DNA of 64,000 nt from positions 124,001 through 188,000 of the forward strand of contig JAURWS010000030.1 in the NCBI GenBank assembly GCA_030654835.1. Reading direction: 5' to 3'. The stretch comes from Gammaproteobacteria bacterium (GTDB lineage Bacteria; Pseudomonadota; Gammaproteobacteria; Pseudomonadales; Pseudohongiellaceae). Of this stretch, positions 29,417-47,468 are shown in pieces. The translations under genes and the position numbers were made by a program. Each line of letters opens with the position of its first letter. Within the stretch, counting starts at the first letter, position 1. The notes under the pieces were generated by a model. That model was not told the origin of the DNA. It saw nothing but the letters and a program-made list of their open reading frames with translations, and did no database searches.

Positions 29417-29522
29417 AGGCTGCCTATTCATTTATGCTAAATCGGTTTAGAATCCCGTCAATTCAATGAAGAAGTGCGCGATTGCACTAATTCAATGTTG
29501 GAGCCAGGCAAGAATCAGCACA

Positions 29523-30935
29523 ATGCCAACGTCACTTTCAATGTTGATAGACCTTCCTCAATCTGCGCTGAACAGCCGCGGCGCCTTTGACCCAATTCTT
29601 GATTTGGATACACGCTTATTTATCGATCCGCATTTGCTTAAGCATGAAGATATTCCGGAATTCAGAAATAGCTATATAAGTCTCCAGGCACACTTTCAGC
29701 GGATATCAAAGCTGCTCAGTGCAAGTGAAGCCATTAACGATGTGTTCTGGCGAAATGCCGACAAAATGATGCAGTGGTCAGAGGTTAAAGGTCTCTGTAT
29801 TGGGTACGCGAGCAAGGGAACTTCGGGAAGCGGGATTGGGCCTGAACTTCGACGTCGACTATTGAGCACGGCAAAAGCAATTATTTCCAAAGGCCGTGAT
29901 GAACCTGAACTATTTGAGCTGGTAGGACTTCTTGAAGAGGATTTCGGCCCAGATCGAATTAGTGATATGAGTGCCAATGTGATCCGTGACGACTTGGTTA
30001 CTTTTACGAAGCGCATCTATAGAGAGCTTATAGAGGCAGGTGGAACGCCACTAGCAATCGACACGAAAACCGATCTTCCAATTAATCCGTTTACAGATCA
30101 GCCAATTCTGTTGGTCCCCATATCCTTATTGAGAGATCTTCCTGTTGCGCTTGATTGGAGTAGCCGAGACATCATCGCGCAACACAACGAAGAGTTGCGA
30201 CAACGAGTCAACCATATCATTGGCCAGTCTTGGAAAGAAGCAACTCGCGGCCTTAAGAAAGGCGACCTTAAGGAAATATTGCTTGAGAATCCCGAGCTAA
30301 TTGACGATCTGGTGAAACAGTACGCAGCGAAGGAAGCGCAAAAATATGACTTCGTAAATGATCGTGCTGGGGAATACATCTGGTTTTCCATATCGCGCCA
30401 ATTTGTCAAAGATAACCCGCTGAGTTTACTTTTGCCGACACATCCGACAACTGATGATGTTTATAAATTGGTTCTTTCGATTTGCGTAAAATTTAAGAAT
30501 CTCGTAGAAAATAATGGTCTTTGCAAACTTTTCTACAACGAAGATGGCACCGCAAAGCATGAGAGTGCGATTCAGTTAGTCTTTTTTGGAATCTCAGATT
30601 CATACTGCCAGGCAAACAAACTTCTGATTGCGCCTGAATCAGACTCTGGTAGGGGACCTGTGGATTTTAAGTTTGGCACGAATATGGAAAATAGCGTGCT
30701 CGTAGAAATTAAGAAATCTACAAACACTTCCGGGCTCAAGAAAGGAATAGAAAAACAGCTTCCGGAGTATATGAATGCAGAAGGCTCTAAGCGGGCTGTC
30801 TATTTGGTTGTCGATGTTGGGAGTACCCAGGCGGCGATTAATCGACTAAGTGAAATTAATAATAAGATTAACGGGACGGCGATCAATATTCTGAGAGTTG
30901 ACGGCATTCCCAAAGTGAGTGCAAGTCGGCTCTAA
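29523..30935 (+). CDS. Uncharacterised protein with PD-(D/E)XK-like C-terminal nuclease motif
   Basis: I do not recognise this 470-residue protein by family. Its C-terminal part contains GPVDFKF, then VLVEIKKSTNTSGLKKGIEKQ, then RAVYLVVDVG (about residues 378-430). The spacing of Asp and Glu-x-Lys fits the core of a PD-(D/E)XK nuclease. The N-terminal 250 residues (LDLDTRLFIDPHLL and a helical region) show no known motif. The base composition is richer in A+T than the gene before it. It lies upstream of a nucleotidase and the type I RM locus, suggesting a defence role; this is inference. The upstream ATG at 29466 has no Shine-Dalgarno. Confidence 0.6.
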   Translation: MPTSLSMLIDLPQSALNSRGAFDPILDLDTRLFIDPHLLKHEDIPEFRNSYISLQAHFQRISKLLSASEAINDVFWRNADKMMQWSEVKGLCIGYASKGTSGSGIGPELRRRLLSTAKAIISKGRDEPELFELVGLLEEDFGPDRISDMSANVIRDDLVTFTKRIYRELIEAGGTPLAIDTKTDLPINPFTDQPILLVPISLLRDLPVALDWSSRDIIAQHNEELRQRVNHIIGQSWKEATRGLKKGDLKEILLENPELIDDLVKQYAAKEAQKYDFVNDRAGEYIWFSISRQFVKDNPLSLLLPTHPTTDDVYKLVLSICVKFKNLVENNGLCKLFYNEDGTAKHESAIQLVFFGISDSYCQANKLLIAPESDSGRGPVDFKFGTNMENSVLVEIKKSTNTSGLKKGIEKQLPEYMNAEGSKRAVYLVVDVGSTQAAINRLSEINNKINGTAINILRVDGIPKVSASRL

Positions 30936-30992
30936 TAAGAGATCAGTCGTCCCGTATTGTACGCGTTAGGCCCCACCTTCACCGGAGCACAC

Positions 30993-31949
30993 ATGGCATT
31001 TGATCTCTCAGAAACGCTTGTCGTTGGAATCTCTGCAACGGCACTCTTTGATTTGACGGAGGCAGACAAAGTTTTTCGGGAAAAATTTGCGAGCGACAAA
31101 GAGACGGCAGTCTCAGAGTATCGAGCCTACATGCTCGCACATGAAGACGAGCCGCTTTGTGACGGAACGGGAATGCCGTTAGTAAAAGCACTACTTCAGC
31201 TAAACAAATACAAGAAGGAAGGAGACAAGCCGCTAGTGGAAGTTGTCGTTATGTCGCGCAATAGCCCAGAAACAGGCATCCGTGTTTTCAACAACATTCG
31301 CGCACAGAGCCTCCCGATATCTCGCCACGCATTCACCGGAGGGGAATCGGTCGTTCGCTACCTTGATGCCTTCGATGTCGACCTATTTCTCACTACCAAT
31401 ATCAATGACGCGCAGCGAGTAATTGACGACGGCAACTGCGCAACCGCGATTGTCAAAGCACCGCCAAGTGACTTGGCATCAATACCAGAAGGGCAGGTGC
31501 GAATCGCTTTTGACGGTGACGCCGTACTTTTCGACGACAGCAGCGAGCTCGTCTACAAGGCGGAAGGACTTCAAGGATTTCATGCAAACGAAGACGCCAA
31601 ACAAGACGTACCGATGCCAAATGGCCCTTATGCTGTCTTCCTTGAAAAGCTCTCTCGACTTCAAAAGAGGCTTCCGTTTGGTGTCGAGTTCTCACCTGTT
31701 CATATGGCAATTGTCACTGCCAGAAATGCGCCTGCGGAGATGAGAGTTATCAAGACGCTTCGTCACTGGGGCGTCTATGTCAATGAGATATTCTTCTTGG
31801 GAGGAGTTGAGAAAGCCAAAGTTCTCAAGGCATTCCGTCCTCATATTTTCTTCGACGATCAAGATCTTCACCTTGACGCTGCGGCTAAGCACGTTCCAGC
31901 AGGAAAGGTTCCGTACAAATCAAACTCGCCTCTCAACGTGAAAGAGTGA
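30993..31949 (+). CDS. Cytosolic 5'-nucleotidase (PF06189 family)
   Basis: These enzymes dephosphorylate nucleoside monophosphates. The 318-residue product begins MAFDLSETLVVGISATALFD, contains VVVMSRNSPETGIRVFNNI, the HAD-type catalytic IAFDGDAVLFDD near residue 172 and FFDDQDLHL near the end, all features of the cN-I-like family. The ATG at 30993 has CGGAG upstream. It sits between the PD-(D/E)XK-like gene and hsdR. A nucleotide-pool role in defence is possible but unproven. Confidence 0.88.
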   Translation: MAFDLSETLVVGISATALFDLTEADKVFREKFASDKETAVSEYRAYMLAHEDEPLCDGTGMPLVKALLQLNKYKKEGDKPLVEVVVMSRNSPETGIRVFNNIRAQSLPISRHAFTGGESVVRYLDAFDVDLFLTTNINDAQRVIDDGNCATAIVKAPPSDLASIPEGQVRIAFDGDAVLFDDSSELVYKAEGLQGFHANEDAKQDVPMPNGPYAVFLEKLSRLQKRLPFGVEFSPVHMAIVTARNAPAEMRVIKTLRHWGVYVNEIFFLGGVEKAKVLKAFRPHIFFDDQDLHLDAAAKHVPAGKVPYKSNSPLNVKE

Positions 31950-32070
31950 GGCACTGCATTACAAGTGTCCCAGCACCAAAATGCCCAATCCCGGCATTCA
32001 CAAGGTATACTCCAGCCCACCTGTTGCCCAATAACAATACCTGCATGCATCTGAAGGAGCGGGAGAGCGC

Positions 32071-34890
32071 ATGACCAGTACCCCAGTGAACCAGAACCCG
32101 GAACAAAGGGCCCGGGATCGCATAGATCGGCAGCTAATCGCCGCCGGATGGCTTGTGCAGAACAAAAACGCCATCAACCTCAACGCAGGCGCGGGTGTTG
32201 CCGTGCGTGAATATCAAACTGATGTCGGCCCCGCCGACTACGTGCTGTTTGTGAACAAGCAGGCAGTGGGCGTAATCGAGGCCAAGCCCGAAGATTGGGG
32301 CCACAAGATCACCACCGTAGAAGACCAATCCCAAGGCTACGCCAACGCCACCCTGAAATGGGTCAACAACAGCGCCCCATTACGTTTCGTCTACGAAAGC
32401 ACAGGCGTGATAACCCGCTTCACCGATGGTCAAGACCCCGCGCCCCGCTCCCGCGAAGTGTTCAGCTTCCCCCGCCCGGAAACACTCGTCGACTGGATGG
32501 GCCAGGCGACCAAACATGAAGGCACACTGCGCGCTCGCCTGCAGCAGATGCCAGCGCTCAACACCGATGGCCTGCGTGCCTGCCAGATCACAGCCATCAC
32601 CAACCTGGAGGCCTCTTTCAAGAAGAACAAGCCGCGCGCTCTGGTGCAGATGGCAACAGGCTCCGGCAAAACCTTCACTGCCATCACGTCCACGTACAGG
32701 TTGCTGAAACACGCTGGCGCCAAACGCATCCTGTTCCTGGTCGACACCAAGAACCTCGGTGAGCAGGCCGAGCAGGAATTCATGTCCTTCCTGCCGAACG
32801 ACGACAACCGCAAGTTCACCGAGCTGTATACCGTGCAGCGGCTGAAATCCTCTTTCGTTGCCAAGGACAGCCAGGTCTGCATCAGCACCATTCAGCGCAT
32901 GTACTCCCTGCTCAAGGGCGAAGAACTCGACGAAGCCGCTGAAGAGACCACCAGCATGCTGGATAAACAGCCGTTGCCAGTGATCTATAACGAGAAGATC
33001 ACGCCGGAGTTTTTTGACTTCATCGTGATAGACGAGTGTCACCGCTCCATCTACAACCTGTGGCGCCAGGTGATCGAATACTTCGACGCCTACCTGATCG
33101 GCCTAACCGCCACGCCGGACAACCGCACCTTCGGGTTCTTCCACAAGAATGTCGTCAGCGAATACGACCACGAAAAAGCTGTGGCTGATGGCGTCAATGT
33201 CGGCAACGAGATCTTCGTCATCGAAACCGAGAAATCCAAACTGGGCGGCAAACTCACCGCCAAGCAGCAAATAGAAAAACGGGAACGCCTCACGCGCAGC
33301 AGGCGATGGGAAATCCAGGACGAAGACGAAGCCTACACGGCCAAGCAACTCGACCGGGACATCGTCAACCCCGATCAGATCAGAACCGTCATCGAGGCCT
33401 TCCACAAGAGCCTGCCCGACATGTTCCCCGGCCGCACGGAAGTGCCCAAGACGTTGATCTTCGCCAAGACCGACAGCCATGCCGACGACATCATCAACAT
33501 CGTGCGTGAGGAGTTCGGCGAAGGAAATGCGTTCTGCAAGAAGATCACGTACCGTGCAGCAGATGGCCGCAAGGACATCGACGGCAATGTCATCGAGAAA
33601 GGCGAAGATCCCAAGTCCGTGCTGGCCCAGTTCCGCAACGACTACAACCCGCGCATCGCGGTGACCGTAGACATGATCGCCACCGGCACCGATGTGCGTC
33701 CGCTGGAATGCCTGCTGTTCATGCGCGATGTGAAAAGCCGCAACTACTTCGAGCAGATGAAGGGCCGTGGCACCCGCACGCTGGATGCCGACAGCCTGAA
33801 GAAGGTGACGCCCTCCGCGATCACCGCTAAAACCCACTATGTGATTGTCGACGCCATCGGCGTCACCAAGTCCCTGAAGACCGCCAGCCAGCCGCTGATC
33901 ACCAAACCCGGCGTCTCACTCAAAGACCTGGCCATGGGCGTGATGATGGGCTCGGCCCGCGACGAAGACTCCGTGTCATCACTGGCCGGCCGTCTCGCGC
34001 GCCTCGACAGACAACTGGAGGACAAGGAGCGCGCCCGCATCAGCGAGAAGGCAGGCGGCAAACCCCTGTTGCTGATCGTTGGCGAACTGCTCAACGCCAT
34101 CAACCCCGACGTCGTGGAACAGAAGGCATTGGAAATTGCACAACAGCCCGCAGGCACCGACCCCGGTGACGGTGCTCGCAATCAGGCCCGCGACCAGCTC
34201 GTGGGTGTGGCAGCCAGCGTCTTCACAGGTGAATTGATAGACCTGATCGACAGCATTCGTCGCGACAAGGAACAGACCATCGTTCACGATGATCTGGATA
34301 ACCTGCTGCGTGCCGAATGGGACGGCGACACCACCGACAACGCCAAAGCTCTCACGCAGGAGTTCGCCGACTACCTGAATGAACATCGCGACGAAATCGA
34401 CGCTCTGACCATCTATTTCCAGCAGCCCGCGCGCCGCTCCGAAGTCACCTACCCGATGATCCGTGCACTGCTTGAACGCCTGCGTCAGGACAGACCCAAA
34501 CTCGCACCGCTGCGCGTCTGGACCGCCTATGCACATCTCGACAATTATCGAGGCGAGAACCCGATCAGCGATCTTACGGCGCTGGTCGCCTTGATTCGCC
34601 GTGTCACGGGACTGGACACAACACTCACAAACTACGCCGCCACGGTACGCCGCAATTTTCAGAGCTGGATCATGCAGCACCACAGCGGCGCGGGTGAAAA
34701 ATTCAACGAGGAACAAATGGCCTGGTTGCACATGATTCGCGAGCACGTCATAAGCTCCTTCCACATCGAGCGCGATGATCTGGAAATGGCACCCTTCGAC
34801 AGCAAGGGTGGGATGGGACGCATGTATCAATTGTTTGGTGAAAGGATGGATGGGGTGATTGAGGAATTGAATCGGGAGTTGGTGGCGTGA
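32071..34890 (+). CDS. hsdR: Type I restriction enzyme R subunit (EcoEI-like)
   Basis: HsdR cuts DNA after translocating it when the HsdM2S complex meets an unmodified site. The 939-residue product has the N-terminal nuclease with GPADYVLFVNKQAVGVIEAK (PD-ExK core, residues 51-70), a helicase with Walker A MATGSGKT near 193, IDECHRS near 320 and a SF2 C-terminal half (DMIATGTDV, MKGRGTRTL). The C-terminal region resembles EcoEI_R_C. It overlaps hsdS by four bases. The base composition looks like the host's. Confidence 0.95.
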   Translation: MTSTPVNQNPEQRARDRIDRQLIAAGWLVQNKNAINLNAGAGVAVREYQTDVGPADYVLFVNKQAVGVIEAKPEDWGHKITTVEDQSQGYANATLKWVNNSAPLRFVYESTGVITRFTDGQDPAPRSREVFSFPRPETLVDWMGQATKHEGTLRARLQQMPALNTDGLRACQITAITNLEASFKKNKPRALVQMATGSGKTFTAITSTYRLLKHAGAKRILFLVDTKNLGEQAEQEFMSFLPNDDNRKFTELYTVQRLKSSFVAKDSQVCISTIQRMYSLLKGEELDEAAEETTSMLDKQPLPVIYNEKITPEFFDFIVIDECHRSIYNLWRQVIEYFDAYLIGLTATPDNRTFGFFHKNVVSEYDHEKAVADGVNVGNEIFVIETEKSKLGGKLTAKQQIEKRERLTRSRRWEIQDEDEAYTAKQLDRDIVNPDQIRTVIEAFHKSLPDMFPGRTEVPKTLIFAKTDSHADDIINIVREEFGEGNAFCKKITYRAADGRKDIDGNVIEKGEDPKSVLAQFRNDYNPRIAVTVDMIATGTDVRPLECLLFMRDVKSRNYFEQMKGRGTRTLDADSLKKVTPSAITAKTHYVIVDAIGVTKSLKTASQPLITKPGVSLKDLAMGVMMGSARDEDSVSSLAGRLARLDRQLEDKERARISEKAGGKPLLLIVGELLNAINPDVVEQKALEIAQQPAGTDPGDGARNQARDQLVGVAASVFTGELIDLIDSIRRDKEQTIVHDDLDNLLRAEWDGDTTDNAKALTQEFADYLNEHRDEIDALTIYFQQPARRSEVTYPMIRALLERLRQDRPKLAPLRVWTAYAHLDNYRGENPISDLTALVALIRRVTGLDTTLTNYAATVRRNFQSWIMQHHSGAGEKFNEEQMAWLHMIREHVISSFHIERDDLEMAPFDSKGGMGRMYQLFGERMDGVIEELNRELVA

Positions 34891-36386
34891 TGCAGAAACT
34901 TCCAGTAGGTTGGACTGACACGTCAGTAGGTGAAGTATTCGAGTTCGCTTATGGGAAAGGGTTGGTGAAGTCATCTAGAAAAGTGGGAGGTCAGTTTCCT
35001 GTTTATGGTTCAAGTGGAGTTGTCGGATATCACGATGAATTCCTTGTGAAAGGGCCGAAGATTGTTGTTGGTAGAAAGGGTGCCGCCGGGTCTGTCCACC
35101 TTTGTCCCGAAAACTGTTGGCCTATAGATACAACATACTTCGTTAATCCAAAAAAAGAAGTAAATGTAAAGTTCGCCTACTATTTTTTGAAAAATCTTCG
35201 ACTACACCAGTTTGAAACCTCGACGGCCATACCAGGGTTAAATAGAGATGATGCCTATCGATTGGACTTTTGGTTGCCGCCCATCAAAGAACAACATCGC
35301 ATCGTCGCCAAAATAGAAGAGCTGTTTTCCGAACTTGACAAAGGCATCGAATCCCTCAAGACCGCCCGCGAACAACTGAAAGTCTACCGCCAAGCAGTCC
35401 TCAAACACGCCTTTGAAGGTAAACTCACCGCCCAATGGCGCGAAGAAAATAAAGACAAACTGGAATCGCCCGAGCAACTCCTTGCTCGAATTCAGCAGGA
35501 ACGTGACGTCCGGTATGAACAACAACTACATGATTGGCAAGCTGCCGTTAGCGCTTGGGAGAGATCAGAAGACGGAAGCAAAAAGCCAACGAAGCCGATA
35601 GCGCCAAAGACATTACCTAATCTGACATCAAATGATCTAGATCGGCTCGGTGATCTTCCGAGTGGATGGATTTGGGTAAAGCTAGGAAATCTCTCATCCA
35701 AAATTACGGATGGGGAGCATTTCAGACCAAAGGTGCAGGAGCAAGGAATTTATTTCCTATCTGCAAAAGATGTCAGAGACTCTGGTGTTTCGTTGGACGC
35801 GCCTCTCTATGTCGATAAAGAGACAGCACTAAAGGCAAGATTGAGGTGTGATCCGAAAAAGGGTGACATACTAATCGTTAGCAGAGGCGCCACGGTTGGA
35901 AGAATGTGTGTAGTTGATACCGACGAACTTTTTTGCCTGTTGGGAAGCGTCATTTTAGTCAAAGCCACAAGTTGCATTGAGAGCCTTTACTTGTGCTCTG
36001 CTCTCAAATCACCCGCAATCAGCAGAGCTGTCGTTTCCTCGTCTGGCGCGACTGCACAACAAGCAATTTATCTTAGAGATATTCAGCATGTTGCAATTCC
36101 AGTGTGTGGCGAGCTTGAGCAACTTGAGATTGTTGCTTCAATAAGTCAGCAGATGAGCACAATAGACTATCTTTATCAAGAAATTGAAAATCAGCAGGCT
36201 ATGTCTGAAATCCTCCGACACGCAATCCTAAAAAAAGCCTTCTCTGGTCAGTTAGTAGCGCAGGATTGCAGCGATGAACCTAGCACTACCATACTGGAGC
36301 GAATTAGAAAGGAGACGTCCGTAGAGATGAGCGGCAAAAAAAAAAGAAAAAGCATTGGTGATCAGACGCAATCTCGAGATAACTGA
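34887..36386 (+). CDS. hsdS: Type I restriction enzyme specificity subunit
   Basis: HsdS recognises the two half-sites of the target for both HsdM and HsdR. The 499-residue product has two variable target-recognition domains, with conserved segments at the end of the first (PPIKEQHRIVAKIEELFSEL, then a long coiled coil) and at the C-terminus (LRHAILKKAFSGQLVAQ). It begins ATGA with the hsdR stop. A run of ten A residues (36336-36345) lies near the C-terminus and could slip. It is followed not by hsdM but by a Gabija-like pair. Confidence 0.95.
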   Translation: MMQKLPVGWTDTSVGEVFEFAYGKGLVKSSRKVGGQFPVYGSSGVVGYHDEFLVKGPKIVVGRKGAAGSVHLCPENCWPIDTTYFVNPKKEVNVKFAYYFLKNLRLHQFETSTAIPGLNRDDAYRLDFWLPPIKEQHRIVAKIEELFSELDKGIESLKTAREQLKVYRQAVLKHAFEGKLTAQWREENKDKLESPEQLLARIQQERDVRYEQQLHDWQAAVSAWERSEDGSKKPTKPIAPKTLPNLTSNDLDRLGDLPSGWIWVKLGNLSSKITDGEHFRPKVQEQGIYFLSAKDVRDSGVSLDAPLYVDKETALKARLRCDPKKGDILIVSRGATVGRMCVVDTDELFCLLGSVILVKATSCIESLYLCSALKSPAISRAVVSSSGATAQQAIYLRDIQHVAIPVCGELEQLEIVASISQQMSTIDYLYQEIENQQAMSEILRHAILKKAFSGQLVAQDCSDEPSTTILERIRKETSVEMSGKKKRKSIGDQTQSRDN

Positions 36387-36401
36387 AAAGGAGGTCAAAG
36401 C

Positions 36402-38648
36402 ATGAAAATAGCTCACATAGATATCCGAAACTTTCGGAAACTGAAATCATGTCGTGTTGAGTTAGCGGAAGGAAAAACTATTTTCGTCGGCGCGAACAAC
36501 AGCGGAAAAACGTCTGCAATGGATGCGCTGATAATGTTCTTGAAGAAATCGAAGAGGAAAGAACTATCAACAACCGATTTTACATTATCCAATTGGGCTG
36601 CGATAAATAAGATTGGCAATAGCTGGGTCGCTGCCATTGACGAACAGGCACCTGATTTCTCATTGGAAATATGGCGCCCGCATCTGCCTTCGATTGATGT
36701 TTGGCTTCAGGTGGATGATGCGCAAATTCACTATGTCAGTCACATACTGCCAACTTTGGATTGGACCGGTGGATTGTTGGGAGTTCGATTAGCTTTAGAG
36801 CCGAAGAAGCCGGAAGAGTTGTATAAGCGATTCATCTCTGCATTCGAATCTGCCAAGGCAACAATGAGTTCCCGACCGGTTTCAGGGGGCAAGGGGCTGG
36901 CCTCCACACTAAAACTGTGGCCGCAGTCGATGCGTGATTTTTTGGACAGAGAAATGCAAACTTTTTTCTCTGTAAATGCGTTCATACTTGATCCATCAAA
37001 AGTTAATCAACCAAACGCACAAGATATTGCAGATGATGTTGAGCCACTGGAAGGCGACCCGTTCGATGGTCTATTCAAAATAGACATTATCAATGCCCAA
37101 AGAGGCTTTTCCGATCCCAACTCGGGGGAGGGAATTAGCAATGCAGACCGACGCCTTTCGTCGCAGCTGCGACAATATTTCGATAACCACTTAGATCCCG
37201 CTGAGTTGCCAGACATTACTGATCTGGATGCTCTGGAAGCGATGGAGGCTGCACGTTCGGCTTTCGATGTTAGACTCAAAGCAAGTTTCAGTTCCGCAAT
37301 TGGGGAATTAGAAGGTCTAAACTACCCCGGCTTCAGCGACCCTCAAATTCTCTTGTCAAGCAAAATGAACCCGCTTGAAAGTCTGAATCATGACTCGGCT
37401 GTACAATTCAAAGTTACTAGAAATGATGCGCCCGAAAGTGATGCTTTGTGCTTGCCAGAAAAATACAACGGGTTGGGTTATCAGAACCTGATTTCCATGA
37501 TATTTAGCCTTATTCGCTTTCGTGATGAATGGATGCGTATCGGAAAAGCAGGGAAGAGAGAAGCTGATGATAGCCGTCCAATTCAACCCCTTCACTTGAT
37601 GTTAATCGAAGAGCCAGAGGCGCATTTGCATGCACAGGTGCAGCAGGTATTTATCAAGAAAGCATTTGGCGTTCTCAGAAGTCACTCAGACTTAGGGAAT
37701 AACAAGCAGTTTGTAACACAAATGGTAGTCAGCACACATTCCAGTCATATCGCGCACGAAACCGACTTTGCAAGCTTACGCTATTTCCGCAGACAAAATC
37801 CTTCCAGGCCGGGTGACGTGCCTTACGCAACAGTCGTCAATATGACGAACACGTTTGGAGGAAATTCAGATACTGCAAGGTTTGCTACTCGGTATCTGAA
37901 AACTACCCATTGCGATCTCTTCTTTGCGGATGCAGTCATTTTGGTTGAAGGGCCAGCAGAACGAATGCTGGTGCCACATTTTATTCGCTGCCAGTATCCT
38001 GACTTGGATAGAAGCTATATATCTCTGCTCGAAATTGGCGGCAGCCATGCGCATCGATTATGCCCGCTTATAGATGCACTTGGACTATTGACGCTGGTGA
38101 TAACCGATTTGGATTCTATAGCTGCGGATACGAGCTCTAAAGTATTGCCGGTGAAAGGCCAGGGTTTTAGGACAGGTAATGACACGCTAAAGAGTTGGAT
38201 ACCAGTTGAAACGATGCTGGACGAACTGTTGAAGGCTTCCTCCGAGAGCAAAGTTGCACGTTGCGGTCGGGTAAGAGTTACATATCCGTGTGAAGTTGCT
38301 TTGAATTATCAAGGCAGCGAAGGAAAGGCCATTCCATACACATTCGAAGATGCGCTCGTGTTGGGAAATCTTGGGTTGTTCAAAATCAAGACAGGGACTG
38401 CCGGGCTACTTAAGAAAATGGTTGATGCTGTGAACTTAGGAACCCTTAGCGAAGCCTGCGAAGCGATGTTTGAAGCGCTTAAGAGTGGTAGAAAAGCTGA
38501 GATGGCCTTGGAGCTGCTTTACACCACGGAGCCAAGCACGCTTCAAACACCACAATACATAACGGAAGGGCTTGATTGGTTAAAAGCCAAGTTAGCTGCA
38601 AACGAGCTCGAACAGATTTACACTCCAGCCACCGTGGAGGCTGAGTGA
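36402..38648 (+). CDS. OLD-family ATP-dependent nuclease, GajA-like
   Basis: OLD nucleases couple an ABC-type ATPase to a TOPRIM DNA nuclease; Gabija GajA is of this kind. The 748-residue product has Walker A GANNSGKTS near residue 31, LIEEPEAHLHAQVQQVF near 401, the H-loop STHSSHIAHE, and a TOPRIM domain with VEGPAERML near 515 and DLDS near 569. It is longer than described GajA (about 580). It has a strong AAGGAGG and abuts a UvrD-like helicase gene, the class 2 OLD arrangement. Richer in A+T than hsdR. The Gabija label is family inference. Confidence 0.85.
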   Translation: MKIAHIDIRNFRKLKSCRVELAEGKTIFVGANNSGKTSAMDALIMFLKKSKRKELSTTDFTLSNWAAINKIGNSWVAAIDEQAPDFSLEIWRPHLPSIDVWLQVDDAQIHYVSHILPTLDWTGGLLGVRLALEPKKPEELYKRFISAFESAKATMSSRPVSGGKGLASTLKLWPQSMRDFLDREMQTFFSVNAFILDPSKVNQPNAQDIADDVEPLEGDPFDGLFKIDIINAQRGFSDPNSGEGISNADRRLSSQLRQYFDNHLDPAELPDITDLDALEAMEAARSAFDVRLKASFSSAIGELEGLNYPGFSDPQILLSSKMNPLESLNHDSAVQFKVTRNDAPESDALCLPEKYNGLGYQNLISMIFSLIRFRDEWMRIGKAGKREADDSRPIQPLHLMLIEEPEAHLHAQVQQVFIKKAFGVLRSHSDLGNNKQFVTQMVVSTHSSHIAHETDFASLRYFRRQNPSRPGDVPYATVVNMTNTFGGNSDTARFATRYLKTTHCDLFFADAVILVEGPAERMLVPHFIRCQYPDLDRSYISLLEIGGSHAHRLCPLIDALGLLTLVITDLDSIAADTSSKVLPVKGQGFRTGNDTLKSWIPVETMLDELLKASSESKVARCGRVRVTYPCEVALNYQGSEGKAIPYTFEDALVLGNLGLFKIKTGTAGLLKKMVDAVNLGTLSEACEAMFEALKSGRKAEMALELLYTTEPSTLQTPQYITEGLDWLKAKLAANELEQIYTPATVEAE

Positions 38649-40534
38649 TGACGGAGCCTAATTTCGTCAATTCAGTTGATGAAGAAATATATGGCTGCCT
38701 TAATTTGAACGCTCCAAGGAGCTTCTTTTTGTTCGCTGGAGCTGGCTCTGGAAAGACTCGATCTTTGGTTGAGGTTTTGAAGCGGTTTCGCAAGGACAAC
38801 ATCCAGCGCTTAAGACTGAATGGGCAGAAGGTTGCCATCATTACTTATACAAACGCCGCTCGTGACGAGATCAATCGGCGCTTGGAGTTTGACCCTGCAT
38901 TTAGTGTTTCTACAATCCACAGCTTTTCTTGGGAACTAATCAAGTCCCATCAGCAGAACATTAGAGAATGGCTGAAAAGTCATCTTCGAACAGAAATTGG
39001 AGAACTAGAGGCAGCCCAAGCTAAAGGTCGTGCCGGTACAAAAGCTGCGGAAGATAGGCCAAGACAAATTGCAGCTAAGACAAGACGATTGGAATCCCTG
39101 GATCAGATCAAAGCATTTACCTATAACCCAAATGGCGCAAACACAGGCAAAGACTCACTAAATCACGCGGAAGTTATAAATCTGGCATCAGAGTTTCTGG
39201 CAGCTAAACCACTCATGCGGCGAATTCTTATCCGTAAGTTTCCGATACTGTTAATCGATGAAAGTCAGGACACAAAAAGAGAGCTCATGGATGCTTTTTT
39301 TGCAGTGCAGAAACAACATGGTGGTGAATTTTCGCTTGGTCTTTTTGGAGACACTATGCAGAGAATCTACTCAGATGGGAAGACTGATCTTGGCCAAAAT
39401 ATTCCTGATGACTGGGTTAAGCCTGCGAAAAAGATTAACTACAGATGCCCGCCACGAGTAGTTGCCCTGATTAACAGAATCCGAGCTGATGTAGATCAAC
39501 AAATGCAGGAAGTTCATAAATCTGATGGGGATGGTTTTGTTAGGTTATTCATCGTCGATACAAGTACTTTTTTTGATAAAGAAGAATTTGAAAATGCTGT
39601 TAGTTTAAAGATGGCTGAAGTCACCGGTGATGATAAATGGGTTGATCATGTGACGGGTAATAAGACCTTAACTCTAGAGCATCATATGGCTGCGTTGCGA
39701 GGAGGGTTTTCCGCTTTTTTCGATCCATTGTATGGCGTGGATAGTCTAAGAACGGGGTTGCTGGACGGCTCACTTTCTGGCATCACCTTCTTCTCAAGTA
39801 AAATTCTCCCACTGGTTAAAAGCTTTCAGGCGAGCGACCAACTCTCTTTATCGCGGATTGTCACCAGATACTCTGACTTATTGTCGAAAGATAAACTGAA
39901 AGCCAGCACCAACCCTAGAGCGGATATAGATACCGCAAAGCTGGCCGTTGATTCACTTTGTGCTTTGTGGAATAAAGACAAAGCACCAACCTTGGTAAGT
40001 ATTCTCACAGAGATTTATCGAAGTGGGTTGTTCAAAATCCCTGAAAATCTAGGAACAATTGCGGCAAGAAGCGGAGATACCTTTGAGGCTGCTGAAGATG
40101 AGAGTGATGTAAATCCGATCATCGATGCCTGGGACACTGCCTTGCAATGTGGATTCAGTGAATTCGAAGAATATGTCCGATATATTTCTGACCAGTCTCG
40201 TTTCGGCACACACCAAGGAATCAAAGGATTACAGTTCCCTCGCGTAATGGTGATTTTGGACGATGAAGAGGCGCGAGGTTTTCTGTTCAGCTACGACAAA
40301 TTGTTCGGAGCCGCCGAGCCATCAGCAAATGATCTAAAGAATAAATCTGAGGGAAAGGAAACAAGTGTTGATCGAACCAGGCGACTCTTTTATGTAACTT
40401 GTAGTCGAGCTGAGGATAGTCTGGCAATTGTTGCCTACACAAAAGATCCGAAAAAAGTTAAAGGATATGTTCTAAAACAAGGCTGGTTTGCGGAGGAAGA
40501 AATAATTCCCTGTGATTTAGGCATTGTGCCATGA
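38648..40534 (+). CDS. UvrD-like superfamily 1 helicase, GajB-like
   Basis: The 628-residue product has Walker A FAGAGSGKTRS near residue 30, the AYTNAARDEI-type motif Ia (IITYTNAARDEINRRL), TIHSFSW, DESQDT near 205 and a C-terminal UvrD_C_2 part with RRLFYVTCSRAEDSLA. The ATG at 38648 shares its A with the stop of the OLD gene, and translational coupling is certain to be tight. Gabija GajB is a shorter helicase of the same class. Together with the OLD gene it forms the likely two-gene defence module. Confidence 0.85.
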   Translation: MTEPNFVNSVDEEIYGCLNLNAPRSFFLFAGAGSGKTRSLVEVLKRFRKDNIQRLRLNGQKVAIITYTNAARDEINRRLEFDPAFSVSTIHSFSWELIKSHQQNIREWLKSHLRTEIGELEAAQAKGRAGTKAAEDRPRQIAAKTRRLESLDQIKAFTYNPNGANTGKDSLNHAEVINLASEFLAAKPLMRRILIRKFPILLIDESQDTKRELMDAFFAVQKQHGGEFSLGLFGDTMQRIYSDGKTDLGQNIPDDWVKPAKKINYRCPPRVVALINRIRADVDQQMQEVHKSDGDGFVRLFIVDTSTFFDKEEFENAVSLKMAEVTGDDKWVDHVTGNKTLTLEHHMAALRGGFSAFFDPLYGVDSLRTGLLDGSLSGITFFSSKILPLVKSFQASDQLSLSRIVTRYSDLLSKDKLKASTNPRADIDTAKLAVDSLCALWNKDKAPTLVSILTEIYRSGLFKIPENLGTIAARSGDTFEAAEDESDVNPIIDAWDTALQCGFSEFEEYVRYISDQSRFGTHQGIKGLQFPRVMVILDDEEARGFLFSYDKLFGAAEPSANDLKNKSEGKETSVDRTRRLFYVTCSRAEDSLAIVAYTKDPKKVKGYVLKQGWFAEEEIIPCDLGIVP

Positions 40535-40613
40535 CTATCAATCCCGCCAATCAGCTCAAAGAGAGGTCTCCGAAGAGCCAATTCGGAAGCATTAGTAGCA
40601 ATGAGGGGCAAGT

Positions 40614-42083
40614 ATGACCATCGAGCGTAATTTGGAATATCTGCGCTCACTGCTGCGCGAATTGTTGCATTTGACTCACGAAACTGAGTGGGTGGAGTTC
40701 AAGCACAACAACGAAGAGCCAGTGATGATCGGCGAATACATTTCCGCATTGGCGAATTCTGCCGCACTTTATGGCAAGAAGTGCGCCTACATGGTGTGGG
40801 GCATTAACGATTCTGATCAGAGGGTGTTGGGTACAACATTCAGACCCAGCACTACTCGATACAAACAACAAGAATTGGAAAGTTGGTTGTTGCAAAAGAT
40901 TGCCCCAAAGATCAATTTTCGCTTTTATGAATTTTTCACTGATGATGAGTTGCCAGTGGTTATTCTGGAAATTCAGGCGGCGACTCATACGCCAGTGCAA
41001 TTCGACGGTGCCGAGTTCATTCGAGTGGGATCGAACAAAAAGAAGTTTCGCGAATTTCCTGAAAAGGAACGCGAGTTGTGGCGGGTGTTTGACCGGATTC
41101 CGTTCGAACAACAAATCGCTGCTGCGGCAGTGAGCATTGAAGATATTCTCAAACTGCTTGATTACCCGACTTACTTCGATCTGCTGGAGCTTCCACTGCC
41201 TGAGGGGCGAGAGGGCATTCTCAGCGCTTTGCAGGCAGACCAATTGATCCACCCTTCGGATGCGGGTTCGTGGAATATCACCAATTTGGGCGCCATTCTG
41301 TTTGCCAAACAACTCTCCAACTTTCAGCACCTGGCTCGTAAGGCTGTCCGTCTGGTGCTTTACAAGGGTGATGATCGCTTTGAGACTATTCGAGAGCTGG
41401 AGGGCAAGAAAGGGTATGCCATCGGCTTTGAAGGTTTGATTGATACGTTGAAAACTTTGCTGCCCTCTAACGAGGAAATTGGCAAAGCGCTGCGCAAGGA
41501 GGTTCCGATGTACCCGGAGTTGGCGCTGCGCGAACTCGTGGCCAATGCAATTATTCATCAGGATTTTAATCTTACCGGCACCGGCCCGATGATCGAAGTG
41601 TTTGCTAATCGCATTGAGATCACTAATCCTGGCACACCATTGGTTGCAACAGATCGTTTTCTTGATAGCCCGCCGCGTAGTCGCAACGAGGGTCTGGCTT
41701 CGTTGATGCGTCGAATCGGTTTTTGCGAGGAGCGTGGCAGCGGTGTAGACAAGGTGGTTCATCAAACGGAAATCTATCAGCTACCTGCACCGATATTTGA
41801 AGCCTTTGAAGAGCATACCCGCTGCGTACTGTTTGCCTATCGTGAATTCAGGGATATGGACAAGGAGGAGAGGATCAGAGCCTGTTATTTGCATTCGGCT
41901 TTGAAATACCTGAATCATCAGCCAATGAATAACACCAGCTTACGTGAGCGTTTTGGTGTTGATACCAAGAACAGTGCCATGGTCAGCCGTATCATCAAAC
42001 AGGCAGTAGAAGTGAGAGCAATTCGGCCTTACGACGAGTCGGCGGGCACGAAGGCCATGCGCTATGTGCCTTGGTGGGCGTAG
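40614..42083 (+). CDS. AlbA_2 (Schlafen-type) domain ATP-binding protein
   Basis: The 489-residue product has an N-terminal AlbA_2 domain (HETEWVEFKHN near residue 22; AYMVWGINDSDQRVLGT) and a central GHKL-like ATP-binding part (ELVANAIIHQDFNLTGTGP near 304; EERGSGVDKVV), with a C-terminal winged-helix-like segment. Such proteins are common in type I RM and other defence loci; some are thought to be transcriptional regulators, others nucleases or sensors. The ATG has GAGGGG upstream. It stands between the helicase and hsdM. Confidence 0.85.
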   Translation: MTIERNLEYLRSLLRELLHLTHETEWVEFKHNNEEPVMIGEYISALANSAALYGKKCAYMVWGINDSDQRVLGTTFRPSTTRYKQQELESWLLQKIAPKINFRFYEFFTDDELPVVILEIQAATHTPVQFDGAEFIRVGSNKKKFREFPEKERELWRVFDRIPFEQQIAAAAVSIEDILKLLDYPTYFDLLELPLPEGREGILSALQADQLIHPSDAGSWNITNLGAILFAKQLSNFQHLARKAVRLVLYKGDDRFETIRELEGKKGYAIGFEGLIDTLKTLLPSNEEIGKALRKEVPMYPELALRELVANAIIHQDFNLTGTGPMIEVFANRIEITNPGTPLVATDRFLDSPPRSRNEGLASLMRRIGFCEERGSGVDKVVHQTEIYQLPAPIFEAFEEHTRCVLFAYREFRDMDKEERIRACYLHSALKYLNHQPMNNTSLRERFGVDTKNSAMVSRIIKQAVEVRAIRPYDESAGTKAMRYVPWWA

Positions 42084-42088
42084 CCCGA

Positions 42089-42120
42089 ATTTGCTTGACC
42101 GTTGCTTGATCGAGCGGCCG
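42089..42120 (+). repeat. 32-base direct repeat upstream of hsdM, copy A
   Basis: The repeat TTTGCTTGACCGTTGCTTGA continues to TCGAGCGGCCG, six bases after the AlbA_2 gene stop. The same sequence with one mismatch recurs at 42539-42570. A partial third copy (AATTTGCTTGATTGATAG) lies around 42626-42643. Confidence 0.85.
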
Positions 42121-42450
42121 GTGTAGTTGCGCCGCATTGATAGACATTTTTTGAGAAATTGCCAGTTGTTCCAGACGAACACCGAAAGCATCGTAAAGTG
42201 AAGGGCCTTCTGAAAGCCACGAAATATCAAGGGGTTATAGAGCCAATAGGAAAGGTTTGGCGAATATCTAAACCCGATTCCTAGACATTTTTTAGATATT
42301 CCCCATGGTGAGAAATTGAAGCGTTGGGCGGGAAGAACGTGCAATTACATGTCGTCAGATAGCAACTTTATACGCCTCGTTGGTGATATGGCGCATAAAA
42401 CGACGAAATGGACTACCGACAATATTTACTTATAAAACAGCAGGATAAAA
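42121..42450. other. Intergenic region with inverted repeat and repeated motifs upstream of hsdM
   Basis: No gene is seen here. It contains a perfect 11-base inverted repeat GAATATCTAAA (42262-42272) / TTTAGATATTC (42291-42301) and a motif TAGACATTTTTT seen at about 42140 and 42281. A related motif with TAGATATTCCCGATGG recurs at 42677-42692. The pattern suggests operators or remains of a duplicated hsdM control region. Confidence 0.5.
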
Positions 42451-42603
42451 ATGTTTGATTCAGCATTATTCAAAAAAGCACAGGTTTTTATGCGCTCTTT
42501 ATGCGCCTTTTATGCACCTTTGGTGCGCAGAAATATCGATTTGCTTGACCGTTGCTTGATCGAGCCGCCGCTAAATCAGGCTGGCAGAACCAAATACTTT
42601 TAA
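42451..42603 (+). CDS. Possible small protein (50 residues) between AlbA_2 gene and hsdM
   Basis: An ATG with GGATAAAA upstream opens a 50-residue frame beginning MFDSALFKKAQVFMRSLCAF and ending TKYF. It contains RNIDLLDRCLIEPP, which is encoded by repeat copy B. I recognise no family. It may be a leader or control peptide for hsdM, or a chance frame. Confidence 0.3.
   Translation: MFDSALFKKAQVFMRSLCAFYAPLVRRNIDLLDRCLIEPPLNQAGRTKYF
42539..42570 (+). repeat. 32-base direct repeat upstream of hsdM, copy B
   Basis: Same as copy A with a single G to C change, about 450 bases downstream and 203 bases before hsdM. The two copies bracket the inverted repeat and most of the small frame. Confidence 0.85.
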
Positions 42604-42773
42604 TAAACAGTAAGTTGAGAGCGCGAATTTGCTTGATTGATAGCTGTCGCAACTGAGCAAAATCAATAGGCATTTCTAGATATTCCCGATGGCCACTGCT
42701 ATCGCAACCGTACAAGTAACCGATCAAGTACCGTACAAGTAACACGTCCACAGAACCACTACCAAGGAACCCA

Positions 42774-44261
42774 ATGACCACCGCCCCCATCATTTCCAAA
42801 GTCTGGAGTTTTTGCACCACCTTGCGCGACGACGGTGTCGGCTACGGCGACTACCTGGAGCAACTCACCTACCTGATCTTCCTGAAGATGGCTGATGAGT
42901 ATTCCAAACCGCCCTACAACAGGAACGTCGGCATTCCCGAGCAGTACAGCTGGGCTTCGCTGAAGAGCAAGCGCGGCGCCGAGCTGGAGGTGCTCTATGT
43001 GGAACTGCTGCGCGCGCTGGGTGTTCAGAAGGGCATGCTCGGTCAGATATTTACCAAGGCGCAGAACAAGATTCAGGACCCGGCCAAGCTCTATCGCCTG
43101 ATCGACATGGTGGACAGCACGCAGTGGGTGATGATGGGCGCCGACGTCAAAGGCGACATCTACGAGGGCCTGCTGGAGAAGAACGCAGAAGACACCAAGT
43201 CCGGCGCTGGCCAGTATTTCACTCCGCGTGCGCTGATCCGCGCCATGGTGGAGTGCATGCGTCCGGAGCCGGGCAAGACGATTGCCGACCCTGCCTGTGG
43301 CACGGGCGGTTTCTTCCTCGCGGCCTATGACTTCCTGACCAGCCCCGACAACTTCAAATTGGACAAGGCGCAGAAGACGTTTCTGAAACACGAAACTTTC
43401 TACGGCAACGAGATCGTCGCCAACACGCGCCGCATGTGCCTGATGAACATGTTCCTGCACAACATCGGCGAGATCGATGGCGACAGCATGGTGTCCCCGA
43501 ACGATGCGCTGGTCGCCGCGAGCCCGAAGAGCTTCGACTACGTGCTGGCCAATCCGCCCTTTGGCAAGAAAAGCTCGATGAGCTTTACCAACGAGGAAGG
43601 CGAACAGGAAACAGATGATCTGACCTACAACCGTCAGGATTTCTGGGCCACTACTTCCAACAAACAGCTCAACTTCGTGCAGCACATTCGCAGCATGTTG
43701 AAGACGACTGGCAAGGCAGCGGTAGTTGTGCCGGACAACGTTTTGTTTGAAGGTGGCGCTGGCGAAATCATCCGCAAGAAGCTGCTCGAAAATACCAACC
43801 TGCATACCATCCTGCGTTTACCCACTGGCATTTTCTATGCGCACGGCGTCAAAGCGAATGTGCTGTTCTTCGATAACGAACCAGCCAGTCCTAAACCGTG
43901 GACGAAGGAAGTGTGGTATTACGATTACCGCACCAACATTCACCACACGCTGAAGAAAAAACCGCTGCGCTTTGAAGACCTCGCGGAATTCGTCAAGTGC
44001 TACAACCCGCAGAACCGCCACAAGCGCAAAGCTACTTGGGATGCTGAGAAAAGTCCGGAAGGCCGTTGGCGCAAATTTACTTACGAAGAGTTGATTGCGC
44101 GGGACAAGACAAGCCTTGATGTGTTCTGGCTCAAAGACAAAAGCCTGACTGACCTCGACAATCTGCCAGAGCCGGATGAGTTGGCGGAAGAGATAATCGA
44201 GAATCTGGAGGCGGGGCTGAATAGTTTTAGGGAAGTGTTGATTGGGTTGAGGCGATCATGA
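42774..44261 (+). CDS. hsdM: Type I restriction-modification system methyltransferase subunit
   Basis: HsdM transfers a methyl group to adenine N6 of the target. The 495-residue product has the helical N-terminal HsdM_N domain, SAM-binding motif DPACGTGGFFLA near residue 170 and catalytic NPPFGKK near 260. AAGGAACCCA lies before the ATG. It comes last of the three hsd genes and is separated from hsdS by about 6.4 kb of cargo. The base composition resembles hsdR rather than the cargo. Confidence 0.95.
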   Translation: MTTAPIISKVWSFCTTLRDDGVGYGDYLEQLTYLIFLKMADEYSKPPYNRNVGIPEQYSWASLKSKRGAELEVLYVELLRALGVQKGMLGQIFTKAQNKIQDPAKLYRLIDMVDSTQWVMMGADVKGDIYEGLLEKNAEDTKSGAGQYFTPRALIRAMVECMRPEPGKTIADPACGTGGFFLAAYDFLTSPDNFKLDKAQKTFLKHETFYGNEIVANTRRMCLMNMFLHNIGEIDGDSMVSPNDALVAASPKSFDYVLANPPFGKKSSMSFTNEEGEQETDDLTYNRQDFWATTSNKQLNFVQHIRSMLKTTGKAAVVVPDNVLFEGGAGEIIRKKLLENTNLHTILRLPTGIFYAHGVKANVLFFDNEPASPKPWTKEVWYYDYRTNIHHTLKKKPLRFEDLAEFVKCYNPQNRHKRKATWDAEKSPEGRWRKFTYEELIARDKTSLDVFWLKDKSLTDLDNLPEPDELAEEIIENLEAGLNSFREVLIGLRRS

Positions 44262-44276
44262 GGCCACAACTCTAAG

Positions 44277-44753
44277 ATGATCGAATACAAAACAGGCGAC
44301 ATCCTTCGTGAAGATGCCGACGCAATTGTCAACACAGTGAACTGTGTCGGTGTGATGGGGCGTGGTATTGCGCTTCAGTTCAAGAAGGCCTTCCCCGAGA
44401 ATTTCAAAGCCTATGCTGCCGCATGCAAGAATGCGGTCGTTCAACCAGGGAGTATGTTCGTATTTGAGATTGGACGGCGGACCTCTCCGCAGTTCATCAT
44501 CAATTTTCCAACCAAGCGCCATTGGCGTGATGCCAGTCGAATGGAGGATATCGAATCCGGGCTCTTTGCCTTGAGGGAAACCATTCGCCAGTACCAGATC
44601 AAAGCGATTGCCATCCCGCCGCTGGGCTGTGGACTGGGAGGTCTCGACTGGGTAGACGTCAGGCCACGCATTGAAGCGGCATTGAGCCCTCTTTCTGACG
44701 TCAGGGTTATCGTGTATGGGACTAAAGGAACACCACCGGCCAGGTCGCTGTGA
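44277..44753 (+). CDS. Macro domain protein, DarG-type ADP-ribosylglycohydrolase-like
   Basis: The 158-residue product is a single macro domain. It has IVNTVNCVGVMGRGIALQFK near residue 17 and IPPLGCGLGGLDW near 119, the pattern of the DarG macro domain that removes ADP-ribose from thymine bases of DNA and counteracts the DarT toxin. There is no DarT upstream and no C-terminal DarG extension, so it stands alone. It starts 15 bases after hsdM and is probably translated with it. The activity is inferred from the motif. Confidence 0.85.
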   Translation: MIEYKTGDILREDADAIVNTVNCVGVMGRGIALQFKKAFPENFKAYAAACKNAVVQPGSMFVFEIGRRTSPQFIINFPTKRHWRDASRMEDIESGLFALRETIRQYQIKAIAIPPLGCGLGGLDWVDVRPRIEAALSPLSDVRVIVYGTKGTPPARSL

Positions 44754-44828
44754 TCAGAGGAGTGATTTGCAATTGGGTCCATTAGTGCAAAACACTGCCC
44801 CTTGATGAGAAGTCCAGTAAACCAATCC

Positions 44829-46707: not shown

Positions 46708-47468
46708 ATGAAAACTGAACTCATACATAGTCTGACCGACACCTTTGAAGGGCACGCCCAACAAACTGAAGGCGGTATCGAATACTGGCTGGCCCGAGAC
46801 CTTCAGCATCTGTTGGGCTACAGCAAGTGGGATAACTTTGTTGGTGTCATATCCAAGGCCAGAACGGCGTGCGAAGTCTCTGGCCACAAGGCGCTCGATC
46901 ATTTTGCCGACGTCGGCAAAACGATCCAAATGCCCAAAGGCGCAACTAAAGAAGTCCCCGATATTATGCTCACCCGCTACGCCTGCTACCTGATTGCGCA
47001 GAACGGTGATCCCAAGAAGCCAGAAATCGCCTTTGCCCAAACTTACTTTGCCATCCAGACCCGTCGCGCCGAACTGATCGAGCAGCGCTTGCTGGAAGCT
47101 GAGCGCCTCAACGCCCGCAAGAAACTCAGTGCCACTGAAAAAGAACTCTCTGACGTCATCTTCGAGCAGACCGGTGGCACCGAGAACTTCGCACTCATCC
47201 GCAGCAAAGGCGACTATGCGCTGTTCAATAAAAACACGCAGGCCATGAAGGCGCAGTGGAAGGTGCCGGACAGTCGCCCTTTAGCTGACTTTGCGCCGAC
47301 CATCATTCTCAAGGCTAAAGACTTCGCCGCTGAAATCACCATCTTCAACGCGGCATTCGTCCGGAGTCCCTGTCACCCGCCGAAGATGTGAAGAAGGTTG
47401 AACGAAGACTGGCTTCAGAGGAAAAGAAGTCGCTGAAGAATCCTGATGCGCTGACGTCGGATGACTGA
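46708..47468 (+). pseudogene. dinD: dinD-like gene, broken by an internal deletion and frameshift
   Basis: DinD is an SOS-induced protein that interferes with RecA filaments. The first 220 residues are intact (QTEGGIEYWLARDLQHLLGY; PDIMLTRYACYLIAQNGDPKK; FEQTGGTENFALIRSKGDYAL) and stop soon after EITIFN. The C-terminal part continues in another frame as RGIRPESLSPAEDVKKVERR, then LASEEKK, ending at 47468. Compared with DinD, about 35 residues between the two parts are missing. The truncated product may still be made, but the gene is not whole. Confidence 0.85.

Follow-up and report, generated by a model that had tools for sequence, protein, structure and literature searches.

What are unrelated genes doing between the subunits of a type I restriction-modification (RM) enzyme, and do they form one system with it or merely share its address? 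The question is raised by a locus in a 64,000-nucleotide stretch (hereafter the window) of a Gammaproteobacteria bacterium of the family Pseudohongiellaceae (contig JAURWS010000030.1, positions 124,001 to 188,000), in which hsdR and hsdS are adjacent and hsdM follows after a Gabija-like gene pair and a gene for an AlbA_2 (Schlafen-type) ATPase. A preliminary description, made from the sequence alone, had proposed a composite defence cassette in which an RM locus carries interchangeable cargo. The follow-up analysis favours a reading that we regard as likely, in which a layered anti-phage operon has been built on a type I RM core and the hsdS-hsdM junction serves as a cargo slot. Uniform cargo among related loci, uniform GC content and a pair falling outside the defence clades had been named in advance as observations that would count against the proposal, and none of the three was found.

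Gene content of the locus

The layout stood as first described (Table 1). All genes were oriented rightward, overlaps of four nucleotides (nt) were found at hsdR/hsdS and at gajA/gajB, and the hsdS-hsdM interval, given earlier as about 6.4 kb, measured 6,387 bp and comprised gajA, gajB, the AlbA_2/GHKL gene and a 690-bp non-coding stretch. The gajA start was located 15 nt past the hsdS stop and was preceded by AAGGAGG. Domains of the window proteins were assigned with Pfam, PADLOC and NCBIfam, and motifs were located by pattern search: HsdR presented GSGKT, DECH and AD..EAK (ADYV..EAK), and HsdM presented DPACGTG and NPPF. Membership in type I was supported by the presence of hsdR, hsdM and hsdS together with these motifs, and the six main open reading frames (ORFs) were full length relative to their families and kept their catalytic motifs. 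Type I HsdR-HsdM-HsdS enzymes cut unmodified incoming DNA, and both restriction and methylation activity may be predicted for this locus from the families of its products.

Table 1. Features of the hsd locus and its surrounding block, in window positions.
Feature	Position	Strand	Description
Block, about 15.4 kb	29418..44774	+	Missing from the femAB-fic site of G010 (L267), a genome of the same genus
Low-GC ORF	29466..30935	+	489 aa, at block start; weak partial PADLOC PDC-M36A match, no Pfam match
5'-nucleotidase	30957..31949	+	PADLOC candidate PDC-S08, Pfam
hsdR	32071..34890	+	939 aa, type I restriction subunit with EcoEI_R_C C-terminus; Pfam ResIII, EcoEI_R_C; PADLOC REase_I
hsdS	34887..36386	+	499 aa, two target-recognition stretches, low GC; Pfam two Methylase_S, PADLOC
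gajA	36402..38648	+	748 aa, OLD-type ATPase/TOPRIM nuclease of Gabija; PADLOC PDLC00093, Pfam
gajB	38645..40534	+	629 aa, UvrD-like helicase of Gabija; PADLOC PDLC00111
AlbA_2 (Schlafen-type) + GHKL ATPase gene	40614..42083	+	489 aa; Pfam SLFN_AlbA_2, HATPase_c_4
Non-coding stretch, 690 bp	42084..42773		Former-cargo remnants and direct repeats
Remnant 1	42153..42284	+	C-terminal tail and stop of an L035-kind AlbA_2 protein
Remnant 2 (probable, short, weaker)	42706..42743	+	Linker repeat TVQVTDQV of an L049-kind AlbA_2 protein, just upstream of hsdM
hsdM	42774..44261	+	495 aa, type I methyltransferase subunit; Pfam N6_Mtase, PADLOC MTase_I 650 bits
Macrodomain ORF	44277..44753	+	158 aa; matches solely the N-terminal part of DarG

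The OLD-TOPRIM nuclease and the UvrD-like helicase noticed earlier fell within the Gabija families of PADLOC. GajA matched its model with 917 bits over residues 1-738 of 748, along with Pfam AAA_15 and OLD-like_TOPRIM, and GajB matched with 828 bits. Pattern searches recovered GANNSGKT, EEPE, VEGPAE and DLD in GajA, and GAGSGKT and DESQ in GajB, in which a third pattern gave no match. Across 16 GajA sequences, E516, D569, D571 and H446 were invariant and K36 nearly so; the residues tested, namely the catalytic TOPRIM E and DxD, the Walker A K and the nucleotide-sensing H, were all present in GajA, which was also aligned to the prototype, and counterparts of prototype D511 and K541 were not located. 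Single-sequence searches of the PDB gave 39.5 bits (GajA) and 19.5 bits (GajB) against the Bacillus prototype. A profile of the 16 GajA sequences reached the solved GajA chains at 3.9e-20, with the OLD nuclease 6p74 ahead (9.8e-27), and a profile of 10 GajB sequences reached solved GajB at 5.3e-15, with Rep, PcrA and UvrD scoring higher; by PDB profile search alone, GajB is UvrD-like. Judged by these families and residues, the window pair is a complete two-gene Gabija.

The best-studied relative is the Gabija of Bacillus cereus VD045 (PMC8136825, available in part; PDB 8jq9, 8sm3), with which the window pair shares the combination of an OLD-type nuclease and a UvrD-like helicase partner, the Walker A K, the H of STHS, the TOPRIM E and the DxD. 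The window GajA differs in its length (748 versus 578 aa), in its weak pairwise similarity and in sitting inside an hsd operon. It had been said to be longer than described GajA, which holds against the 578-aa prototype and fails against PADLOC, where two GajA models, of 736 and 752 aa, align with it almost end to end; its length was consequently rejected as a novelty. The third cargo gene also proved to be what it had been called, since its product carries both AlbA_2 and ATPase domains. The motifs E23-x4-E28 (E-x4-EFK), GIND and ELVANAIIH were found in it by pattern search. The Schlafen RNase SLFN13 is described, in the part of the source available, as having the catalytic residues E205/E210/D248, with an E-E spacing of 5, and by pattern alone the E23-x4-E28 and GIND of the window protein may be compared with them.

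The cargo had further been described as richer in A+T than hsdR and hsdM. This was borne out by the GC content (third-codon-position GC, GC3, in brackets), which was 46.4% (45.8) for gajA, 43.7% (39.5) for gajB and 49.4% (55.5) for the AlbA_2 gene, against 58.2% (75.7) for hsdR and 55.2% (74.6) for hsdM. The contrast was incomplete, as hsdS was equally low at 45.5% (42.2); in 300-bp steps, GC fell at the hsdR/hsdS border and climbed at the start of hsdM. The low-GC unit is therefore hsdS plus cargo. Because the low-GC block begins at hsdS, composition alone is no evidence of a Gabija insertion, and that use of it was rejected, the more so as C1, which is also a type I locus of this genome, has an hsdS that is equally low (GC 43.9%, GC3 40.5).

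Contents of the hsdS-hsdM junction in related loci

Two sources supplied relatives of the window HsdM: a set of 144 related genomes, 66 of which had a match and 16 regions of which were used, and a named genome collection covering bacteria and archaea, which contributed the best 80 of 571 confirmed loci. The resulting 96 loci were examined together with the window. HsdM scored above 500 bits in 91 of them, the window included, and below that value in six (L043-L048). For 61 of the 91, an HsdR match (at least 200 bits, sometimes to part of a gene) and an HsdS were found upstream of hsdM within 14 kb; the other 30 were excluded with HsdR or HsdS missing, cut off or unrecognised, and leaving out L118, from the same genome as L038, reduced the count to 60. 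The R-S-M order was a condition of this count and not its result, loci with another order being excluded; the more distant L043-L047 presented the order R-M-S. Any same-strand ORF of at least 130 aa was counted as cargo by a mechanical rule, under which some of the short ones may not be genes, and the cargo ORFs were clustered by single linkage at 1e-5, the largest cluster mixing AlbA_2 and Fic proteins. Most of the surveyed loci were metagenome-assembled, and the titles of records with an HsdM match named Proteobacteria, Bacteroidetes, Verrucomicrobia and Chlorobi, among others.

Of the 60 loci, 50 had the hsdS-hsdM interval filled by one or more same-strand ORFs, and the contents of the slots fell into 44 sequence clusters. 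The hsdR-hsdS interval was filled in 15/60, so that the junction preceding hsdM was occupied about three times as often. Even among locus pairs whose HsdM proteins were at least 88% identical, any cargo cluster was shared in 15 of 64. The cargo was fitted tightly on its upstream side, with the first cargo gene placed at a median of -4 nt from hsdS and the last one ending at a median of 54 nt before hsdM (n=51 for both, the window and the duplicate included), and in seven of the ten empty loci hsdS and hsdM overlapped by 4 nt. Across the R-S-M clade, the junction was thus either closed, mostly by such an overlap, or held one or more same-strand ORFs that often differed between close relatives.

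A tree of HsdM from the 60 loci (a quick search, with 17 of 57 inner branches starred) was used to count changes. The 38 slot-content changes obtained on it were set aside, since the 31 states make 30 of them unavoidable, and two binary counts were therefore used instead: the largest cluster (18 carriers) required at least 14 changes in presence, and the empty versus filled state at least eight changes among 10 empties. These counts bear out the earlier proposal of interchangeable cargo.

Signs of turnover were also found in the window itself, and they were not part of the preliminary description. Within the 690-bp gap upstream of hsdM, remnant 1 gave a tblastn match of 51% over 41 aa (E 2.8e-12, against 0.001 for the best of 20 block shuffles) to an AlbA_2 protein of the L035 kind, a subfamily other than that of the resident one. 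Remnant 2 was a blastn match of 90% over 39 nt (E 1.3e-6) to a stretch that is coding in L049 (..QQVTEQVTEQV..); it was not among the listed tblastn hits, and the other tblastn hits (E 0.008 and worse) were no better than shuffles. The resident AlbA_2 protein as a tblastn query had no listed hit in the gap, and therefore at least one earlier occupant has been lost. The gap keeps one clear remnant of a former AlbA_2-type cargo, and probably two, and is thereby direct evidence that the content of this particular slot has turned over. A 32-nt direct repeat, 97% identical, was also observed in the gap (42089-42120 and 42539-42570, 450 bp apart).

The kinds of cargo were surveyed by running Pfam on 40 of 94 cargo proteins, 11 of which had no match. 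The domains recovered were AlbA_2+HATPase, Fic, RhuM-Fic, GmrSD, DUF4357, AAA_21, AAA, subtilisin-like protease, SMC/AAA, DUF1828, DarT, macrodomain, zeta toxin, SMEK, SIR2, HerA, Transposase_31, AbiEii, Bro-N, PLD nuclease, YhcG nuclease, HTH-M78, DUF3800 and a cytidine deaminase domain, with GIY-YIG (in the DUF4357 protein) and AbiEi (partner of AbiEii) below the Pfam cut-off. The clusters included DarTG, SIR2-HerA, AAA-protease, GmrSD, Fic, AbiEii, AlbA_2 and others, and by our own reading many of the typed domains appear to be of kinds known from defence or toxin-antitoxin systems. The nearest rows to the window in the HsdM tree (fork support 81) illustrated the variation. The slot of L049 (HsdM 90% identical) carried genes for SMEK, zeta-toxin-like and AlbA_2-type proteins and for one protein that had no match in Pfam. 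That of L033 (G053:C8) held seven ORFs in 11,086 bp, the longest among the 61 loci, and five of these encode an SMC/AAA-type ATPase, an AAA protein paired with a subtilisin-like protease, a DUF1828 protein and a macrodomain protein of the DarG type. In L083 the order was R-S-AlbA_2-M, with an AlbA_2 protein close to that of the window (483 bits), which corresponds to the window arrangement minus Gabija. On a Gemmobacter plasmid, the position of hsdR is taken by a helicase-type gene, and hsdS, a DUF262 gene and a methyltransferase gene come next, the successive overlaps being 4, 11 and 4 nt; on a Vibrio plasmid hsdS adjoined hsdM with no cargo, and on a Methylomonas plasmid hsdM was present with no annotated hsdR or hsdS within the stretch examined.

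The same turnover, the dead-cargo remnants and the ten empty slots would also suit another explanation, in which the locus is a defence-island hotspot that tolerates insertions and the position of a gene means nothing beyond linkage. We hold this to be possible, if clearly the less favoured option, and it is compatible with the slot part of the layered-operon reading. It accounts poorly for the many cargo ORFs that overlap their neighbours by 4 nt (same-strand ORFs alone having been counted), for the preference for the S-M over the R-S interval, and for the many typed proteins from defence or toxin-antitoxin families.

Embedded systems and Gabija elsewhere

Variable cargo embedded in type I operons is already known from the available portions of several reports, so the general idea of the preliminary description is not new. 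The hsd loci of Campylobacter jejuni harbor R-linked (rlo) and M-linked (mlo) ORFs (Miller 2005, as cited in PMC5183652 and PMC4619093). Like the loci surveyed here, they have intervening ORFs that vary from one related operon to the next, and RloF is a homologue of GmrSD, a family also present in the slot; the C. jejuni loci differ in belonging to the type I families IC, IAB and IF, and the accessible text names no Gabija. In Vibrio cholerae, TgvAB of the island VPI-2 (PMC11411939) is likewise a complete two-gene second defence in an hsd operon, directed at a different DNA state; unlike the window pair, it is placed between hsdR and hsdS, is of GmrSD type rather than OLD/helicase, and was tested with phages. 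The RRDM island includes DarTG2 inside a type I system of enteropathogenic Escherichia coli (PMC12255303), which is again a defence module embedded in hsd genes, although it lies between hsdS and hsdR, is RptR-regulated and represents other cargo; its embedding site may be a recombination hotspot (PMC12255303). In EcoprrI (PMC3874165, PMC12707154), too, a type I operon encloses an accessory gene, that of PrrC, but this tRNA anticodon nuclease stays latent within the restriction complex until inhibition of the enzyme by T4 Stp activates it. A search of open-licence literature, in which most subscription papers are absent, turned up neither a Gabija described within a type I operon nor a comparable count of slot contents.

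The surroundings of Gabija in other genomes were examined as well. Close GajA relatives were searched in 369 class-level and 144 related genomes, and 15 regions from 13 genomes were examined: GajB adjoined GajA in 14, and none of the 15 contained hsd genes when the window Hsd proteins were used as queries. A GajA or GajB match was likewise recorded in none of the 96 other loci of the architecture table, and the candidate view of Gabija as a regular partner of the hsd operon was rejected on these two counts. Two of the 379 plasmid records with a GajA match were examined, and their annotated Gabija pairs were outside hsd operons; upstream of one of them, an HsdR_N-domain protein is encoded separately. 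Another type I locus of the genome to which the window belongs (G000:C7, L192, 4389-14413, minus strand) nevertheless carried a different Gabija pair, arranged after HsdR, PDC-S22 and a fused HsdM-HsdS (870 aa); its GajA (679 aa, 671 bits) and GajB (667 aa, 542 bits) belong to another subclade, and the pair overlaps the HsdMS stop. Among nine regions around relatives of this second GajA, L213 had an HsdM-like gene and no recognised GajB, and of the other eight seven had GajB and L214 had none. It was observed that L213 (G275:C3) aligns an HsdM-like (532 aa), an OLD-type (655 aa), an AlbA_2-type and a Fic gene in a row on one strand. In L193, an AAA_15-type ATPase between hsdS and hsdR matched NsnB/AriA best in PADLOC and GajA weakly.

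The AlbA_2/GHKL protein, by comparison, is a recurrent companion of type I loci. The locus C1 of the same genome (G000:C1, L194, 7733-14449) has the order hsdM-hsdS-AlbA_2-hsdR, with an AlbA_2 protein 41% identical to that of the window, and of 12 regions other than its own, four (L291, L296, L297 and L301) had a relative inside a type I locus and one more (L300) is doubtful, several of the contigs examined being short.

The attachment of two different Gabija pairs to type I loci of one genome, together with the tight junctions and the embedding within the operon, would fit a functional coupling in which Gabija, with or without AlbA_2, guards restriction and fires when a phage anti-restriction protein disables it, in the manner of PrrC in EcoprrI. 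PrrC and PARIS are described as RM guardians (PMC12707154), and Gabija is stated to be activated by Ocr (PMC12255303), both in the portions of these sources available. Such a special coupling is not needed to explain a slot that accepts dozens of unrelated ORFs, and the relatives of Gabija are mostly free-standing; we therefore deem it unlikely. The same low standing is given to the broader proposal that the slot is a docking site for restriction guardians, in which Gabija, with or without AlbA_2, would be co-expressed with the enzyme and triggered when Ocr/ArdA-type proteins disable it. Were this improbable proposal true, it would be the reason why two distant Gabija subclades came to be recruited to type I loci of one genome.

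The surrounding block and the proposed layers

The locus is part of a longer block that was missing from G010, in which femAB is followed directly by fic, both at about 91-92% DNA identity to the window, with a different femAB stop at the junction. The femAB surroundings were also examined in six further genomes of the genus, for some of them over only 2-5 kb beyond femAB, and contained neither the hsd genes of the window nor fic. The block was most likely gained in the lineage of the window at the 3' end of femAB, its loss from G010 being the possible alternative. A mobile element as its carrier was considered and rejected, as the window contained no tRNA and the region 26000-50000 no Rfam match; in Pfam, none of the nine main ORFs in the block had an integrase, transposase or recombinase domain. 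At its start, the 489-aa ORF ends 21 bp before the gene for the 5'-nucleotidase, whose nearest relative among 38 genomes was in G012 (69% identical; others 41-48%); this enzyme shares the block with Gabija, a nucleotide-sensing system. Downstream of fic, a Bro-N domain protein of 227 aa is encoded (46708-47391), and Bro-N is also slot cargo in L076.

The last ORF of the block, likewise beyond the preliminary description, is 68% identical to the slot DarG of L033/L057 but placed downstream of hsdM. The remainder of DarG was absent from the window, and a search for DarT, made without a positive control, gave no match in the genome, on which basis this ORF was rejected as part of an active DarTG. 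A locus in decay, with hsdM severed by debris, restriction dead and the neighbours scrap, would leave just such a truncated DarG and a gap with remnants, but it appears very improbable when the six main ORFs are full length with their catalytic motifs and L125 has a still longer gap before hsdM (876 bp).

The layered-operon reading can be set out as follows, bearing in mind that these explanations are not mutually exclusive. The type I enzyme would form a first layer by cutting unmodified incoming DNA. Gabija would be the second: B. cereus GajA nicks DNA and is inhibited by NTP and dNTP, and nucleotide depletion during infection has been proposed as its trigger by the authors of that work (PMC8136825, in the part available), so that on this model nucleotides would hold the window GajA off until phage replication depleted them, whereupon it would nick DNA with GajB as partner. 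The AlbA_2 protein may be a third effector or a regulator, and two or three independent layers in one operon are most likely. Recombination within hsdR and hsdM, the conserved flanks, would exchange the cargo, often along with hsdS, and the cargo would be kept by using the expression of the operon and by spreading with it.

Several points weigh against this reading. The nucleotide-sensing mechanism is carried over by analogy from the prototype, since GajA and GajB are far from the pair that was tested. Co-transcription of the cargo and hsdM is uncertain because of the 690 bp that separate them and because no promoter-like site was listed before hsdM, in a promoter/terminator scan that was itself uninformative, with fewer promoter-like sites than in shuffles. 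Gabija occupies the slot in one of the 60 loci, namely the window, whose slot content is known from one genome, and with free-standing relatives prevailing a special link between Gabija and the operon is weak. Part of the slot content is moreover inherited, as close relatives share cargo more often than distant ones, among which sharing was seen in 19 of 284 pairs at 80-84% HsdM identity and 75 of 767 at 60-76%.

These results altogether document with numbers a defined position in a widespread type I operon as a high-turnover site for second-line genes, and bacteria appear, as far as these sequences tell, to swap second-line weapons in and out of the hsdS-hsdM slot. A rule for finding new genes of this kind follows, which is to look between hsdS and hsdM, and the typed occupants with no Pfam match make the slot a ready list of candidates. 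The question whether embedding couples a second system to the failure of restriction, or merely links genes, is thereby made testable.

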